In this document: positions 24,875-63,688 of the stretch, piece by piece
Numbering within the stretch: position 1 is the first letter of the stretch
Layout of the letters: every line of letters starts with the position of its first letter
Made by a program: the position numbers and the translations under genes
The notes under the pieces: generated by a model
Database searches by the model: none
What the model saw: the letters and a program-made list of their open reading frames with translations, nothing else
Told to the model about the DNA's origin: nothing
NCBI RefSeq assembly: GCF_000814825.1
Contig: NZ_CP009302.1
Coordinates: 496,001 to 560,000 of the forward strand
DNA from: Berryella intestinalis
GTDB lineage: Bacteria; Actinomycetota; Coriobacteriia; Coriobacteriales; Eggerthellaceae
Length of the DNA: 64,000 bases
Reading direction: 5' to 3'

Positions 24875-25525
24875 ATGCAGATAGACCTGAAGCAACCGAT
24901 CCTCGATAAGAACGACTCGCTTGCCGCCGAGCTGCGGCAGCGTTTCGACGAACACCACGTGTACGTGCTGAACCTGCTGGCCAGCCCAGGATCGGGCAAG
25001 ACCTCGACCATCCTGGCCACTATCGACGCCCTGCGCGACGAGTTCAACATCGCGGTGATCGAGGGCGACATCGCCAGCAGCGTCGACGCCGAGAAGATCA
25101 AGAACCAGGGGATCCCCGCCGTCCAGATCAACACGGGGGGCGCCTGCCATCTGGAAAGCGCCATGCTCAAGCGCGCCATCGACGTGCTGGATCTTTCCCG
25201 CCTCGACCTCATTATCATCGAGAACGTGGGCAACCTGGTCTGTCCGACCGATTTCTACCTGGGGGAGAACAGCAAGGTCATGATCCTGTCGGTTCCCGAG
25301 GGACACGACAAGCCCTTGAAGTACCCGGGCGTGTTCCAGGCCTCCGACGCCGTGATCCTCAACAAGGTGGACACGCTTCCCGTGTTCGATTTCGACCGCG
25401 AGGCGTTCGAGGCCTCGGTGCGCGAGCTGAACCCGGCGGCCCCCATCTTCCCCATCGCCGCGACCAAGGGCGACGGGGTCGAGGAATGGGCCGAGTACCT
25501 GGCCGAGAAGATCCGCAACGTGTAG
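24875..25525 (+). CDS. hypB: Hydrogenase maturation GTPase HypB
   Basis: GTPase that powers nickel insertion with HypA. The 216-residue protein has the P-loop LASPGSGKTSTILA, the switch region VIEGDIASSVDAEKI, the conserved metal-site segment GGACHLE and the guanine-specificity motif LNKVD. The N-terminal His-rich nickel store and CXXCGC motif found in some HypB proteins are missing. GAAGGAGG supports ATG 24875. The gene lies between hypA and nadE with gaps of 29 and 25 bases, so all three probably share a transcript. Confidence 0.94.
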   Translation: MQIDLKQPILDKNDSLAAELRQRFDEHHVYVLNLLASPGSGKTSTILATIDALRDEFNIAVIEGDIASSVDAEKIKNQGIPAVQINTGGACHLESAMLKRAIDVLDLSRLDLIIIENVGNLVCPTDFYLGENSKVMILSVPEGHDKPLKYPGVFQASDAVILNKVDTLPVFDFDREAFEASVRELNPAAPIFPIAATKGDGVEEWAEYLAEKIRNV

Positions 25526-58369: not shown

Positions 58370-59276
58370 ATGGTAAAGATCGTCACCGATTCGGTCACTG
58401 GCTGGCCTGTCCGTCGACGAGGCGCGCGAGCGCGATATCGCGGTCGCCTCGCTTTTCGTGAATTGGAACGGGGTCGAATACGTCGAGTCCGACCTCGATG
58501 TCGAGGAATTCTACGCAAAGATAGCCGATATGGTGGATAACACCCCCACGTCGAGCCAGCCTTCCCAGCACGAGCTCGAGGAGATCTTCGAGAAGATCGC
58601 CCAAGACGGCGACGAGCTTCTGGGCGTGTTCCTGAGCTCCGGCCTGTCGGGAACCTACGAAGGCGCTATTCGAGCCGCCCGTTCGGTGGCTGCCCGCAAC
58701 GCCGGGTTCAACTTCCGCATCATCGACGCCTGCTCGGTGTCCTACGACGAGACCTGGCCGCTTCTGCGCGCCGTCGCAGCGCGCGATGCCGGGGCCGATC
58801 TGGATACGTGCGTGTCGGAATGCTACGAGGGCATCGCCTCGTCGCGCTTCCTCTTCGTCCCCGACTCCCTCGCGTTTCTGCGCGCGGGCGGGCGCATCGG
58901 GGCGGCTGCCGCCCTCATCGGCGGGCTGGTGAAGATCATCCCGATCATCACGGTCACGGACGGCAAGGTGAACCCCTTCGTCAAGGTGCGCACGCACGGC
59001 AAGGCCATGAAGGCCATGTACGATCTGTTCAAGAAAGACGTCGAGCAGTACGGCATCAAAAACGTCGTGGTCCACTACATCGGCGACAAGACCGACGCCG
59101 TCGCGTGGGCGCGCGAGAAGATCGAACCGCTGCTGGGGCACGCCGTTGCGGTCAAGCCGGTGACTCCTGTTGTTGGTGTGCATGTTGGCCCCGCGATTGG
59201 CATCGCATACGAATGCGCGAGTAGAATTGCCGACAAGATAAACAAGCCGTTATCGGCCGTTGTCTGCTCTGCCTGA
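58370..59276 (+). pseudogene. degV family gene disrupted by a 4-bp tandem duplication
   Basis: The correct DegV start is ATG 58370 after AAGGAGGG: MVKIVTDSV, the fatty-acid-binding TDS motif. At 58398-58405 the sequence CTGGCTGG is a 4-base tandem duplication. It shifts the frame after about 10 codons. Removing one copy restores an in-frame DegV reading VTGLSVDEARERDIAVASLFVNWNG. Downstream codons stay intact for 272 residues from GTG 58458, including LSSGLSGTYEG and FLRAGGRIG. The lesion is either real inactivation, reversible slippage or a sequencing error. A second intact degV gene follows. Confidence 0.85.
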
Positions 59277-59326: not shown

Positions 59327-60256
59327 ATGAAGCCTCAGTGCAATCTGATCATCGACTCGTGTTGCGACCTTCCCTTCGACGTGGTTGAAGACGAAGGCGT
59401 GACCCTTCTGGAATTCCCGTACCTCACCAGCGAGGGCGAGCGTTCCGACGACCTGTTCAAATCGATCAGCGCGCATGAGTTCTACGAGGGCATGCGCAAC
59501 GGCGAGCAGCCTTCGACGGCGCAGGTTCCCCTGGTGAGGTTCCGCGAGGTGTTCGAGCAGGCGGCCCGCGAGGGCGTCCCCACCGTGTACCTCAGCTTCA
59601 CGCGGGGGCTTTCGGGCAGCTTCGACACCGCGCTCATGGTGCGCGACCAGATCGTGGCGGAGTACCCCGGGTTCGAGCTGCACGTGGTCGAAACGTGTCT
59701 CGCGTCGATCGCCGAGGGCTTGCTGGTGTACGAGGCCCTGCGCGAACGCTCGCGCGGTCTGACGGCCTCCCAGATGGTCGAGTGGGCCAACGAGGCGAAG
59801 TACTTCATCAACGAGATGTTCATGGTCGACGACCTCGAGTCCCTGCGCCGCGGCGGGCGCATCCCCGCATCGGTGGCGCTGGCGGGAGCGAAGCTCGACG
59901 TGAAGCCCATGCTCGATATCGCCCTCGACGGGAAGCTGTCGCTGGTGGGGGTTGCCCGCGGCCGCAAGAAGGGCATCAAGCAGCTCGCCGAGTTCTACAA
60001 GAAGCGCATCGAGAGCGTGACCGACGAGCGTCGCCGCGTGATCATCGGGCATTCCGACTGCCCGAAAGACGTCGAGCGCCTCAAGGACGAACTGCGCAAG
60101 GTGGACGAGTCGATCGTGTTCCTGGAAACCTCCATCGGCCCTGTCATCGGCTCCCATGTGGGGCCCGGGATGCTGGCTCTGGCATTCTGGGGCGTCGACA
60201 GCCGCGAGATGCTGTCCATCTCCGAGCGCATCGCCTCGCGCGTCCATCGCGATTAG
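59327..60256 (+). CDS. DegV family fatty-acid-binding protein
   Basis: A 309-residue DegV protein, a family that binds fatty acids or acyl phosphates and in Firmicutes serves as FakB. It keeps the N-terminal IIDSCCDLPF (TDS-like site), SFTRGLSGSFDTA and the hallmark MVDDLESLRRGGRI. TAGGAGG precedes ATG 59327. It is more diverged from the FakB consensus than the frameshifted neighbour. No fakA kinase gene lies nearby. Confidence 0.92.
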   Translation: MKPQCNLIIDSCCDLPFDVVEDEGVTLLEFPYLTSEGERSDDLFKSISAHEFYEGMRNGEQPSTAQVPLVRFREVFEQAAREGVPTVYLSFTRGLSGSFDTALMVRDQIVAEYPGFELHVVETCLASIAEGLLVYEALRERSRGLTASQMVEWANEAKYFINEMFMVDDLESLRRGGRIPASVALAGAKLDVKPMLDIALDGKLSLVGVARGRKKGIKQLAEFYKKRIESVTDERRRVIIGHSDCPKDVERLKDELRKVDESIVFLETSIGPVIGSHVGPGMLALAFWGVDSREMLSISERIASRVHRD

Positions 60257-60303: not shown

Positions 60304-61419
60304 ATGTCCAACAGGTTCGCATTTCAAGGTCACGAGTCGATCGGCGCGCTGGTAAGGCGCGGTATGGAGGGCCTTGCCTGGGTCGAGGTGGACGATGTCG
60401 CATCTGCGAACGCCGTGTTCACGTACTTCGCGTCGCTGCAGGAGCTCGAGGACGCGTATTTCGGCGAGGGCGGCATCGCGCAGGCGGCGCCCGCCGAGGC
60501 GCTTCTGATCGACCTGTCTCCCTCGACTCCGGCGTTTTCCCAGGAACTGGCATCGCTCGCGACGGTTTCGGGGATGCGCCCGGTCGAGGCTCCGCTGGCC
60601 GTGGTCGATTTGGGCGCGGCCGACGCGTTCGCCGACATGTCCCGCCTGGCCTGCTTCGTCGGCGGGGACGAGGCCGACGTGGAGGCGGCGCTTCCTTTGG
60701 TGTCGGCTGTCGTGGGCACGGCAAGCCGCACGGGGGCCGCAGGGTCTGCCCAGCTCGCGCGCTGTGCGCTTACGCTGCAGACCGCTTCCCAGATCGTGGC
60801 GGCCATCGAGGCCGAGGCTCTGTACGCGGCGACTCAGCGCTCGGTGACGGCGGTCGAGGGGCTCGAGGGCTCGGTCGGGGCCGTCACCCCGCAATCGGCA
60901 AGCGTCCTCGAGCGCATCGCCGAGGGGCGCTTCGATGCGACCTACACCGTCGAGATGTTCCTTGCCGAGATCGCGGCGGCGCTGCGTGCGGCCGAAGACG
61001 TCGATCTCGTCGTTCCCCAGGCCGAGGCCGTGATGAACCTCGTCCAGCTGCTGGCCGTTCTGGGAGGCGCCGACAAGAGCCCGGCCGCCGTTTCGCTTTT
61101 GTACCGCGACGAGGACGACGGGCGCCGCGCCGGTCTTGACTGGGCGCGCGCCCGCGAGTACTACGAGGTCGATCACTCCGACGACGAGGAAGCCGATTTC
61201 GACGGCGACTTCGACGGCGACTTCGGCGAGTACGAAGGCGGCTTTGCGCCCGACCGTTCTCAGGACGGCGGCCGTGATCGCGGGCATGCGCACGGCCATG
61301 ACCACGGGTGCGGTTGCGGCCATCACCATGCAAGCGAAGCCCAGCATGAGTGCGAATGCGGTCACGATTCGCACGATTCCGGCCACCAGTGCTGCGGAAA
61401 GCGCCACGGCGAGCGCTAG
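60304..61419 (+). CDS. Rossmann-less beta-hydroxyacid-dehydrogenase-like protein with His/Cys-rich tail
   Basis: A 371-residue protein. Residues about 25-260 follow the 3-hydroxyisobutyrate dehydrogenase pattern from mid-Rossmann domain onward (IDLSPSTPAFSQELASLA, GGDEADVEAALPLVSAV, GAAGSAQLARCALTLQ). But the N-terminal GxGxxG NAD loop is absent, and the catalytic Lys is Arg in LARCALT. Residues about 300-371 form a tail: acidic repeats (DFDGDFDGDFGEYE) then a His/Cys cluster (GHAHGHDHGCGCGHHH, CECGHDSHDSGHQCC). This looks like a metal-binding module on an inactive dehydrogenase fold. The PflX-type gene begins 4 bases later. Confidence 0.72.
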   Translation: MSNRFAFQGHESIGALVRRGMEGLAWVEVDDVASANAVFTYFASLQELEDAYFGEGGIAQAAPAEALLIDLSPSTPAFSQELASLATVSGMRPVEAPLAVVDLGAADAFADMSRLACFVGGDEADVEAALPLVSAVVGTASRTGAAGSAQLARCALTLQTASQIVAAIEAEALYAATQRSVTAVEGLEGSVGAVTPQSASVLERIAEGRFDATYTVEMFLAEIAAALRAAEDVDLVVPQAEAVMNLVQLLAVLGGADKSPAAVSLLYRDEDDGRRAGLDWARAREYYEVDHSDDEEADFDGDFDGDFGEYEGGFAPDRSQDGGRDRGHAHGHDHGCGCGHHHASEAQHECECGHDSHDSGHQCCGKRHGER

Positions 61420-61423
61420 TTCC

Positions 61424-62461
61424 ATGTCCGACGCCTGCCATCTCTGCCCGCGCGATTGCGGCGCGCACCGAAGCCGTGCCGTCGGAGTATGCGGGGCGGG
61501 GGCGGGCGTCGTCGTGTCGCGCGCGGCCCTTCATTTCTGGGAGGAGCCGCCCATTTCGGGATCGTCGGGAAGCGGCACGGTGTTCTTTTCGGGCTGTCCC
61601 CTGCGCTGCGTCTACTGCCAGAACGCCGAGATCGCATACGCGGCCTCGGGTCTCGATATATCCGTCGGGCGGCTGGCCGCCATCATGTCCGAGCTCGAGG
61701 GACAAGGCGCGCTCAACATCAACTGTGTGACGGCGACTCCCTTCATCCCCCAGGTGGAGCGCGCGGTTTACCTGGCCCGATCGGCCGGAATGGCGCTTCC
61801 GATCGTATGGAACACCTCGAGCTACGAGACGACCAAGTCGGTTTCTCGCCTCGCGGGCACGGTCGATGTGTGGCTGGCCGATTTGAAGTACGCCGGTTCC
61901 GACATCGCCCGGCGCTATTCTCGGGCGGCTGACTACCCGGATGTGGCGATCGCGGCGATCGATCGCATGCTCGAGCAGGCTGGCGAGCCGTGCTATGACG
62001 AATACCGAGGCCAAACGCGCTTGGTGAGCGGAGTGTGCATTCGGCATCTCCTTCTTCCGGGGAATCTGGAGGACTCGAAGCGCGTGGTCGACATCGTTGC
62101 GGACCGCTACGGCGACCGGGCGCTGCTGTCGCTGATGAGCCAGTACACGCCGGTGGTCGCATCGGCTGCCCGATCCGGGGACAAGCGCGCGATGGATGTC
62201 GTGCGCAGCTGCCCCGAGCTTGCCCTGCGCGTAACCGACGCCGAGTACGAAGAGCTGCTCGACTATGCGGACGAGCGGGGGTTGGACGGTTATTTCTGGC
62301 AGGACGGGGAAGCGGCGGAGGAGAGCTTCGTTCCCGCATGGGACCATACCGGCGTGTTGGAGCCCGCCGGCGCGCTTCCGAGCGGCGGGATCCCGCGATC
62401 GGCAATCTCTGGAAAAAACGGGGATCTTGCCGGGAAAACCAGGCCGCTTACCGTAGAATAG
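61424..62461 (+). CDS. PflX-like radical SAM protein
   Basis: A 345-residue radical SAM protein of the PflX type (COG1313). The N-terminus has CHLCPRDCG, then HFWEEPPISGSSGSGTVFF and the radical SAM CxxxCxxC motif SGCPLRCVYCQN. Further signatures are NINCVTATPFIPQVERAV, IVWNTSSYETTK and the ADLKYAGSDIA segment. Relatives are activating-enzyme-like proteins with unidentified targets. ATG 61424 follows the previous stop by 4 bases, so it is co-expressed with the His/Cys-tailed protein. A glycyl-radical enzyme is not nearby. Confidence 0.85.
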   Translation: MSDACHLCPRDCGAHRSRAVGVCGAGAGVVVSRAALHFWEEPPISGSSGSGTVFFSGCPLRCVYCQNAEIAYAASGLDISVGRLAAIMSELEGQGALNINCVTATPFIPQVERAVYLARSAGMALPIVWNTSSYETTKSVSRLAGTVDVWLADLKYAGSDIARRYSRAADYPDVAIAAIDRMLEQAGEPCYDEYRGQTRLVSGVCIRHLLLPGNLEDSKRVVDIVADRYGDRALLSLMSQYTPVVASAARSGDKRAMDVVRSCPELALRVTDAEYEELLDYADERGLDGYFWQDGEAAEESFVPAWDHTGVLEPAGALPSGGIPRSAISGKNGDLAGKTRPLTVE

Positions 62462-62476: not shown

Positions 62477-62551
62477 GCCAGCGTGGCTCAACGGTAGAGC
62501 AACTGATTTGTAATCAGTGGGTTGCGGGTTCGATTCCTGTCGCTGGCTCCA
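62477..62551 (+). tRNA. tRNA-Thr, anticodon UGU (integration site)
   Basis: A 75-nt cloverleaf with encoded CCA. The acceptor GCCAGCG (62477-62483) pairs with CGCTGGC (62541-62547), with discriminator T. The anticodon loop TTTGTAA gives UGU on stem ACTGA/TCAGT, and the T loop is TTCGATT. A tyrosine integrase gene ends 37 bases downstream, so its 3' end is the probable attachment site. Confidence 0.95.
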
Positions 62552-62559
62552 ATGTTTCA

Positions 62560-62594
62560 GCAGGTCGGATGGTGAATCCGACCTGCTTTACTTT
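62560..62594 (+). terminator. Terminator downstream of tRNA-Thr
   Basis: GCAGGTCGGAT (62560-62570) and ATCCGACCTGC (62576-62586) form an 11-bp stem with a GGTGA loop, then TTTACTTT. The integrase stop codon lies within the T-rich part. Confidence 0.9.
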
Positions 62595-63688
62595 CCAAAG
62601 TCGAAAAAAACCGGTACTTTAGCGGTACTTTGACCGCATATGTAGTCGCTCAAGCAGTCCGCTATCGCCATCATCCCCGCCTCTGTTGATGCTTGGTAAT
62701 GCGTCCCACGCGTCGTGCCGTCTGCGTGGCCCATAGCAAGCGATACGAGCGAATCGGGGCTTCCCGCCTCCCCGTGCAATGTGGCGAAGGTCGAGCGCAG
62801 GTTCTTCGGCTGGATGTACTCGACTTCGTGACGCTGACACCACAGCTTGAAGTTCCGCGTGATCGTCGCCGGCTGCGTCCTCGTGCCGTTGGTTGCCACG
62901 ATTGGGCCTTCTGCCCTCAGCTGCTCCATGAGTGATGCGAATGGATCGCCCATCACGGCTACGCGCTGAGACATCGCGGTCTTCGGCGCCTTCATCTCAG
63001 AGCCGCCTTTGACGGTAACTATCGCCTTGTCAACCCTCACGGCGCAGTACTTCCTGCCACGGTGTTCGGCGAACGCCACGTCTTCCCAATCGAGTGCGCA
63101 AGCCTCTTCGACGCGGAGTCCGGCTCCAAGCTCCGCGAGTATGGTCGGTAGGTACCTGCATCCCGAAAGCGAGTCTAGCCACGGCTTGACTTCGGCCGCT
63201 CTCAAAAGGCGCTTCTCGGTGCGCGTCAGCGTTCTGAACTCTATGTAGCGGTCGCACGGGTTGCGCGCTGCTACGCCGTCTGACACGGCGCGGTTGAGTA
63301 TCTTTCGCAGCAGCCTGAACGCCGCGCGCTGCGTCCCGGGAGCTTCTATGGCGTCTATGGCCTGCTGAACGTCTTCGCGGCATATGGTAGACACCTCGCG
63401 GTTGCCGAGAATCGGCCCCACGCGCTTCGCCCACAAGGCATCGTATCCCTGCTTCGTTCGCGTCTCCAAGCCGTCGCACGACGGCCTCACGACCAAGCAC
63501 CAGTAATCTGAAAGCGTGGTGGACGGCATTGCACCGCGCGTACCCACCTGCACGGAGGCTAAGAACCTCTCGGCGTCGTCAATGCTTCCGTGTATGCGCT
63601 TCGACCGCTTGCGGTCGTTCTCCACCCAGAACGCCTGGTAGTAATCAGGGCCTAGGCGCCTTATGTGGCCGAACCTCGATTTGGGCAT
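62588..63688 (-). CDS. Tyrosine recombinase integrase of an integrated element
   Basis: A 366-residue phage-type integrase. The N-terminal ~60 residues match the AP2-like or arm-binding start (RFGHIRRLGPDYYQAFW), then a core-binding domain (about 65-155) and the catalytic domain. Catalytic residues seen are Arg in GAGLRVEEACAL, the box II Arg in NLRSTFATLHGEAG with Lys in place of the usual His three residues before it, His in LAMGHADGTT and Tyr in THYQA. It lies at a tRNA-Thr 3' end pointing toward it, the usual integrated orientation. The element extends beyond the right edge. Confidence 0.9.
   Translation of the reverse strand: MPKSRFGHIRRLGPDYYQAFWVENDRKRSKRIHGSIDDAERFLASVQVGTRGAMPSTTLSDYWCLVVRPSCDGLETRTKQGYDALWAKRVGPILGNREVSTICREDVQQAIDAIEAPGTQRAAFRLLRKILNRAVSDGVAARNPCDRYIEFRTLTRTEKRLLRAAEVKPWLDSLSGCRYLPTILAELGAGLRVEEACALDWEDVAFAEHRGRKYCAVRVDKAIVTVKGGSEMKAPKTAMSQRVAVMGDPFASLMEQLRAEGPIVATNGTRTQPATITRNFKLWCQRHEVEYIQPKNLRSTFATLHGEAGSPDSLVSLAMGHADGTTRGTHYQASTEAGMMAIADCLSDYICGQSTAKVPVFFDFGK

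Follow-up and report, generated by a model that had tools for sequence, protein, structure and literature searches.

The dehydrogenase-like domain of the eukaryotic binding protein N-PAC/GLYR1 is inactive and has the fold of 3-hydroxyisobutyrate dehydrogenase (HIBADH) (PMC12112590). Two reports describe His-rich flexible proteins in bacterial nickel handling (PMC7840056, PMC8704837), and a third presents SSB as a model for a linker that ends in a C-terminal docking tip (PMC10164576). Here we describe a gene of Berryella intestinalis (Eggerthellaceae) whose product, the pseudo-dehydrogenase, joins a degenerate HIBADH-fold body to a disordered tail. The gene lies in the window, by which we mean the whole 64,000-nucleotide stretch analysed (contig NZ_CP009302.1, positions 496,001 to 560,000, forward strand), from a genome of 1.97 Mb in one contig (G000). 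We are highly confident of this anatomy taken alone, and we propose, as a reading that we consider reasonably probable, that the protein is a repurposed enzyme working as a non-catalytic scaffold or adaptor. The features of the gene, in window coordinates, are as follows.

60304-61419, plus strand: HIBADH-like open reading frame (ORF) of 371 residues, ATG at 60304, stop at 61417-61419
60304-61158, plus strand: degenerate HIBADH-fold body, residues 1-285 (partial Pfam matches, AlphaFold2, Foldseek, motif table, and the substitution rates given below)
60328-60345, plus strand: GHESIG, residues 9-14, remnant of the GxGxxG loop (alignment with intact relatives)
60379-60399, plus strand: approximate place where beta2-alphaB is missing (alignment and AlphaFold2 secondary structure)
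60760-60762, plus strand: codon of Arg153, which aligns with the catalytic Lys (motif alignment)
61159-61416, plus strand: disordered tail with acidic repeats (DFDGDFDGD) and a Cys/His cluster (HAHGHDHGCGCGHHH...HECECGHDSHDSGHQCCGKRH), with a predicted local distance difference test score (pLDDT) below 50 over most of its length

The body consists of a broken Rossmann domain and an all-helical C-terminal domain, at the end of which stands a helix (GLDW) specific to the window's order. AlphaFold2 predicts it confidently (pLDDT mostly above 90) with the HIBADH fold, and Foldseek matches it to GlxR, tartronate semialdehyde reductase, HIBADH, gamma-hydroxybutyrate dehydrogenase and the inactive domain of human N-PAC. 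In the alignment, the second glycine of the cofactor loop is gone and about 26 columns covering beta2-alphaB are deleted (consensus of intact relatives there: ...YNRTKEKADALVARGAHWAD). In proteins of this fold, beta2-alphaB holds the adenosine side of the cofactor. Neither the SGG loop nor the KD motif survives (APLAVVDLG and EMFLAEIA stand at those places), and in the KLAN motif the Lys column holds Arg and the following Asn is lost. Profile scores give the same picture. The Pfam match to NAD_binding_2 is partial and starts at profile position 37 (36.5 bits, cut-off 21), where the intact relative L100 matches end to end with 172 bits, and NAD_binding_11 falls below threshold (23.5 bits, cut-off 30). 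All HIBADH-type NCBIfam models are far under their cut-offs, including the curated equivalogs TIGR01505, which is the best match (74 versus 340.75 bits), and TIGR01692 (38.8 versus 291.6 bits).

These losses are shared across the family. Our comparative set comprises 60 genomes, 35 of them Eggerthellaceae, and 29 of these 35 carry the gene. All 29 copies have a broken loop and lack SGG, KD and the 26 columns; the Lys column is mostly Arg, with Lys, His or Leu in some copies. The first-pass annotation, made from the window's letters alone, had called the protein an inactive-looking HIBADH relative, and motif alignment, profile scores and conservation in 29 of 29 copies bear this out. It had also stated that the NAD loop and the catalytic lysine are lacking. 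The loop position is present in broken form and the Lys column holds Arg, so that "degenerate" is the better word. An intact NAD loop in a longer upstream frame is ruled out by an in-frame stop only 10 codons 5' of the ATG.

The gene is embedded in a string on one strand with three neighbors that enter the comparisons below.

58458-59276, plus strand: DegV-family gene of the same gene string (Pfam DegV, 196 bits)
59327-60256, plus strand: DegV-family (FakB-like) gene directly upstream of the pseudo-dehydrogenase and its order-wide neighbor (Pfam DegV, 191 bits; gene-order clusters)
61424-62461, plus strand: pflX, a PflX-type radical SAM gene, ATG at 61424, stop at 62459-62461, with CPLRCVYC (CxxxCxxC) and an N-terminal CHLCPRDCG

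Selection on the gene was estimated between the window genome and the nearest relative compared (G003, locus L002), at a synonymous rate (dS) of about 0.65. The ratio of nonsynonymous to synonymous rates (dN/dS) comes to 0.116 over the whole gene, with 0.107 in the body and 0.149 in the tail. The value for the gene is comparable to that of pflX (0.091) and above those of the two DegV genes (0.057 and 0.072), and the product is therefore maintained as a protein. By this measure the folded body is under purifying selection, and it most likely works by binding; catalysis by the pseudo-dehydrogenase is presumably absent.

Comparison across the class suggests how such a protein arose. Relatives from other orders are plain enzymes, 285-312 residues long and with no tail, and their genes are not next to degV. 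Within the window's order the relatives carry the GLDW helix and a tail, and the gene stands directly behind degV in eight families (f1, which is Eggerthellaceae, and f2, f4, f5, f6, f7, f9 and f10; f10 and f4 are presumably Coriobacteriaceae and Atopobiaceae). In f8 it stands behind another degV-type gene or pncB. The catalytic motifs are intact in f2, f4, f7, f9, f10 and one copy of f8, partly or wholly degenerate in f5, f6 and part of f8, and fully degenerate in f1. On a likelihood tree a single change of state is enough to account for the degenerate forms, a count that scores the partly degenerate f8 copy L104 as degenerate, leaves some forks open and has bootstrap values that are not fully settled; the branch to f1 is long (1.19). 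The alignments thus indicate that the lineage to Eggerthellaceae lost its cofactor pocket and active site. A link to the fatty acid kinase FakA (YloV) is uninformative, as this gene is present in all 60 genomes.

The tail combines a variable composition with, in most of the family, a fixed end. Residues 281-371 of the window's protein hold 19 His plus Cys in 91 residues against a background of 3.4% (binomial, 1.8e-10), and the richest 40 residues hold 17, where the next best protein in the window reaches 8; the acidic repeats and dense His/Cys cluster reported at first reading are thus confirmed. For the rest of the family we used 61 loci from a named genome collection, all from Eggerthellaceae or uncultured relatives. 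Among 58 complete named Eggerthellaceae tails, length varies from 33 to 75 residues and about 31% of residues are acidic; the window tail is itself 44 residues longer than that of G003. The C-terminal residue is Asn in 56 of the 58, and 49 end in [FYW][ST]xN. His is sparse or missing in many of them (none in 10, fewer than 4 in 39, at least 4 in 19). A linker that varies up to a fixed end is what one would expect of a docking peptide, and [FYW][ST]xN is probably a docking motif. The same ending occurs in f5, f6, f8 and f9, with intact enzymes among them, and therefore probably predates the loss of catalysis. The window's protein and G003 have no [FYW][ST]xN peptide, and end in the Cys/His cluster instead. 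A search of 13 genomes for proteins ending in G[FY]x[FY]SxN gave four matches, two of them the pseudo-dehydrogenase itself, with a pattern so strict that it misses most known copies.

The tails richest in Cys and His are found in f4 and f10, on enzymes with intact motifs (for example, DECGCGHDHGHDHECGCGHDHDHDHECCGGHGHGHEHGDHECTCGHHH); one of these tails has 21 His and 10 Cys among its 72 residues. These enzymes adjoin degV and have no pflX nearby, which speaks against the first-pass proposal of a metal tail tied to PflX. A role in metal binding is plausible for the window's genus and for the intact f4 and f10 enzymes; it is very unlikely to be what the whole family has in common. The window also contains hypB, for nickel insertion into hydrogenase (24878-25513). 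We considered and rejected a tie between the His content of the tail and nickel hydrogenase maturation, as hypB is nearly universal, yet absent in three rich-tailed f4 genomes.

We next consider pflX. Its translation contains the CxxxCxxC cluster motif and scores 29.4 bits with Pfam Radical_SAM (cut-off 29.5) and 25.9 with Fer4_12 (cut-off 22); it looks like an ordinary PflX-type radical SAM protein and is a probable member of COG1313. The spacer between the two genes in the window is TTCC, 4 bases as first noted, and pflX adjoins the pseudo-dehydrogenase in 28 of the 29 Eggerthellaceae genomes with the gene. In the other families of the order adjacency is found in none of the 15 genomes holding both genes. 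There pflX lies behind gatC-gatA-gatB in f6, f7, f8 and f9 (for example, L112:4131-8371 and L118:7367-11661; in f9, gatB was not resolved by simple ORF calling) and elsewhere in the remaining families. The adjacency is confined to f1, and is therefore most likely derived and family-specific; gene order rules out pflX as an order-wide partner. In all, 55 of the 60 genomes have pflX, and 10 of these have no detected relative of the dehydrogenase, one of them (G028) uncertain because its contig ends there. Across the 56 of 61 named loci in which it was measured, the gap between the genes has a median of 52 nt and exceeds 100 nt in 24. No conserved small ORF that could be a substrate was seen in the measured gaps, and an Rfam search of the gaps of six loci gave no match. 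The first-pass annotation had treated the two genes as one system with a radical SAM-modified protein as target. That pairing is not supported by the gene order, the pflX genes that occur by themselves and the gaps without a conserved small ORF. Frequent occurrence of pflX without this partner was an observation that the first-pass annotation itself had named as refuting its idea, and the counts above largely supply it. Although pflX is perhaps co-transcribed with the pseudo-dehydrogenase where the gap is short, it appears to be a family-specific neighbor and no dedicated partner.

Several further features of the pflX region were observed. At four loci of the Adlercreutzia/Enterorhabdus group (L169, L170, L173 and L177) the gap is 280-375 nt long, is conserved in sequence and contains inverted arms of 25-26 nt about 160 nt apart. 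Rfam gives no match to it, and it may be a regulatory region or a separate pflX promoter. In many Eggerthellaceae, genes matching TIGR03916 (putative DNA repair radical SAM) and TIGR03915 are next to pflX (L065:6105-7580 and L082:7718-8626). In the window, pflX is directly followed by tRNA-Thr (TGT) and then by a tyrosine integrase on the minus strand (62477-63688 and onward; C1:558477-593218). A 46-bp copy of the 3' end of this tRNA lies 34,665 bases downstream, and a mobile element of about 35 kb has probably integrated here.

Based on these data, we propose the following history. An ordinary tail-less NAD(P)-dependent beta-hydroxyacid dehydrogenase would have gained, in the window's order, its position behind degV, the conserved GLDW helix and a flexible tail that is acidic or rich in Cys and His. 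In the lineage to Eggerthellaceae, as the sequence comparison shows, cofactor pocket and active site then disappeared. In the resulting protein, the body may serve as a binding core that probably forms oligomers, like its enzyme relatives, while the tail would be a tether, reaching a putative partner or holding metal ions. In most Eggerthellaceae the [FYW][ST]xN end of the tail would do the docking; in the window's genus this peptide would have been replaced by the Cys/His extension, a probable binding site for Zn, Ni or a similar metal. The fullest form of this proposal is a family of repurposed bacterial dehydrogenases in which an acidic tail presents [FYW][ST]xN to a putative partner and one genus has swapped the peptide for a metal cluster, making a metal-gated scaffold; we offer it tentatively, as a possibility with the odds against it.

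Other explanations share parts of this evidence. The Cys/His-rich tails of the intact f4 and f10 enzymes, and their reappearance in the window's genus, would fit a general metal buffer or chaperone, independent of PflX, in which the body is a carrier and the tail keeps Zn, Ni or a similar metal in store or passes it on. We think this unlikely: the 39 family tails with fewer than 4 His argue against it, as does the independence of His/Cys content from hypB, and one f10 genome (G125, locus L208), whose enzyme is intact and keeps the GLDW helix, has entirely lost the Cys/His part. Should the protein instead be a metal-sensing or metal-delivery scaffold that acts with PflX on a radical SAM-modified protein, the 4-base spacing, the near-universal adjacency in Eggerthellaceae and the Cys/His tail of the window copy would all be accounted for. 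Outside f1, however, no family of the order has the two genes linked, and in four families pflX lies behind gatCAB; 10 genomes with pflX have no detected dehydrogenase relative. Together with the long gaps, the 10 tails without His and the lack of a conserved substrate ORF between the genes, this makes such a scaffold very improbable.

A further alternative is a surviving enzyme with a different cofactor or reaction. The body is strongly conserved, D70, P76, P97 and G147 are kept as in the intact forms, and two features weigh against our proposal of a non-catalytic scaffold: the DxSxxxP substrate motif is retained (DLSxSTP), and the Lys column holds Arg or Lys, so that an altered activity is compatible with the sequence. 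The loop, beta2-alphaB, SGG, the Asn after the Lys column and KD are all lost together, though, and the residues specific to the family (only F53, E81, A96, L173, F210, T215 and R282) reveal no new conserved polar set, and we regard a surviving activity as improbable. The scaffold proposal must also accommodate an AlphaFold2 model in which docking of the terminal peptide onto the body was not seen (peptide pLDDT 32), dN/dS values that come from a single genome pair, and a gene that is dispensable, as G001 and G002 of the window's genus have degV next to pflX with no remnant between. This clean loss in two genomes, along with the loss of every catalytic motif, is what a decaying pseudogene would predict; a dN/dS of 0.116, an open reading frame in nearly all copies and the presence of the gene in 29 of 35 family genomes largely refute that idea for the family and leave it almost no probability.

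Related gut bacteria have intact, intermediate and fully degenerate forms of one enzyme at the same place in the genome, so that the passage from enzyme to non-catalytic protein can be tested directly. The conserved C-terminal peptide suggests a putative partner in gut genera such as Eggerthella, Gordonibacter and Adlercreutzia. In addition, annotation by the weak family matches would call the gene a dehydrogenase, and metabolic models would be misled. In a limited literature collection we found no paper on the protein itself, nor any that treats PflX together with radical SAM or HIBADH together with His-rich tails and nickel.

Lastly, we compared the pseudo-dehydrogenase with the described systems that it resembles. 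With tartronate semialdehyde reductase/GlxR and HIBADH it shares fold and ancestry (best Foldseek matches 9rb2, which is glxR, and 1vpd, with 20% identity and a target TM-score of about 0.74), but it differs in having no cofactor loop, beta2-alphaB, SGG, Lys or KD and in carrying the GLDW helix and the disordered tail. The eukaryotic GLYR1/N-PAC/NDF is an inactive dehydrogenase of this fold (2uyy; TM-score 0.78, 16% identity). N-PAC carries a PWWP domain at its N-terminus and has its partners in chromatin, whereas the pseudo-dehydrogenase is bacterial and has a C-terminal tail instead; Pfam finds no PWWP domain in the window ORF, only the fold is common to the two, and their origins are probably independent. 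The His-rich nickel proteins (SlyD, HypB and Hpn-like) also have a flexible, low-complexity segment rich in Cys and His, which here is borne by a pseudo-dehydrogenase body; across this family the tail is not conserved as His-rich, and it shows no link to the presence of hypB. SSB has the same layout of folded core, disordered linker and C-terminal docking tip, but its fold is unrelated, its tip differs from [FYW][ST]xN, and in the window's genus the tip is absent. The pflX neighbor has the CxxxCxxC and N-terminal Cys motifs of PflX-type radical SAM proteins, and pflX is linked to the pseudo-dehydrogenase gene only in Eggerthellaceae. N-PAC/GLYR1, SSB and the His-rich nickel proteins are thus precedents, and the pseudo-dehydrogenase belongs to none of these families.
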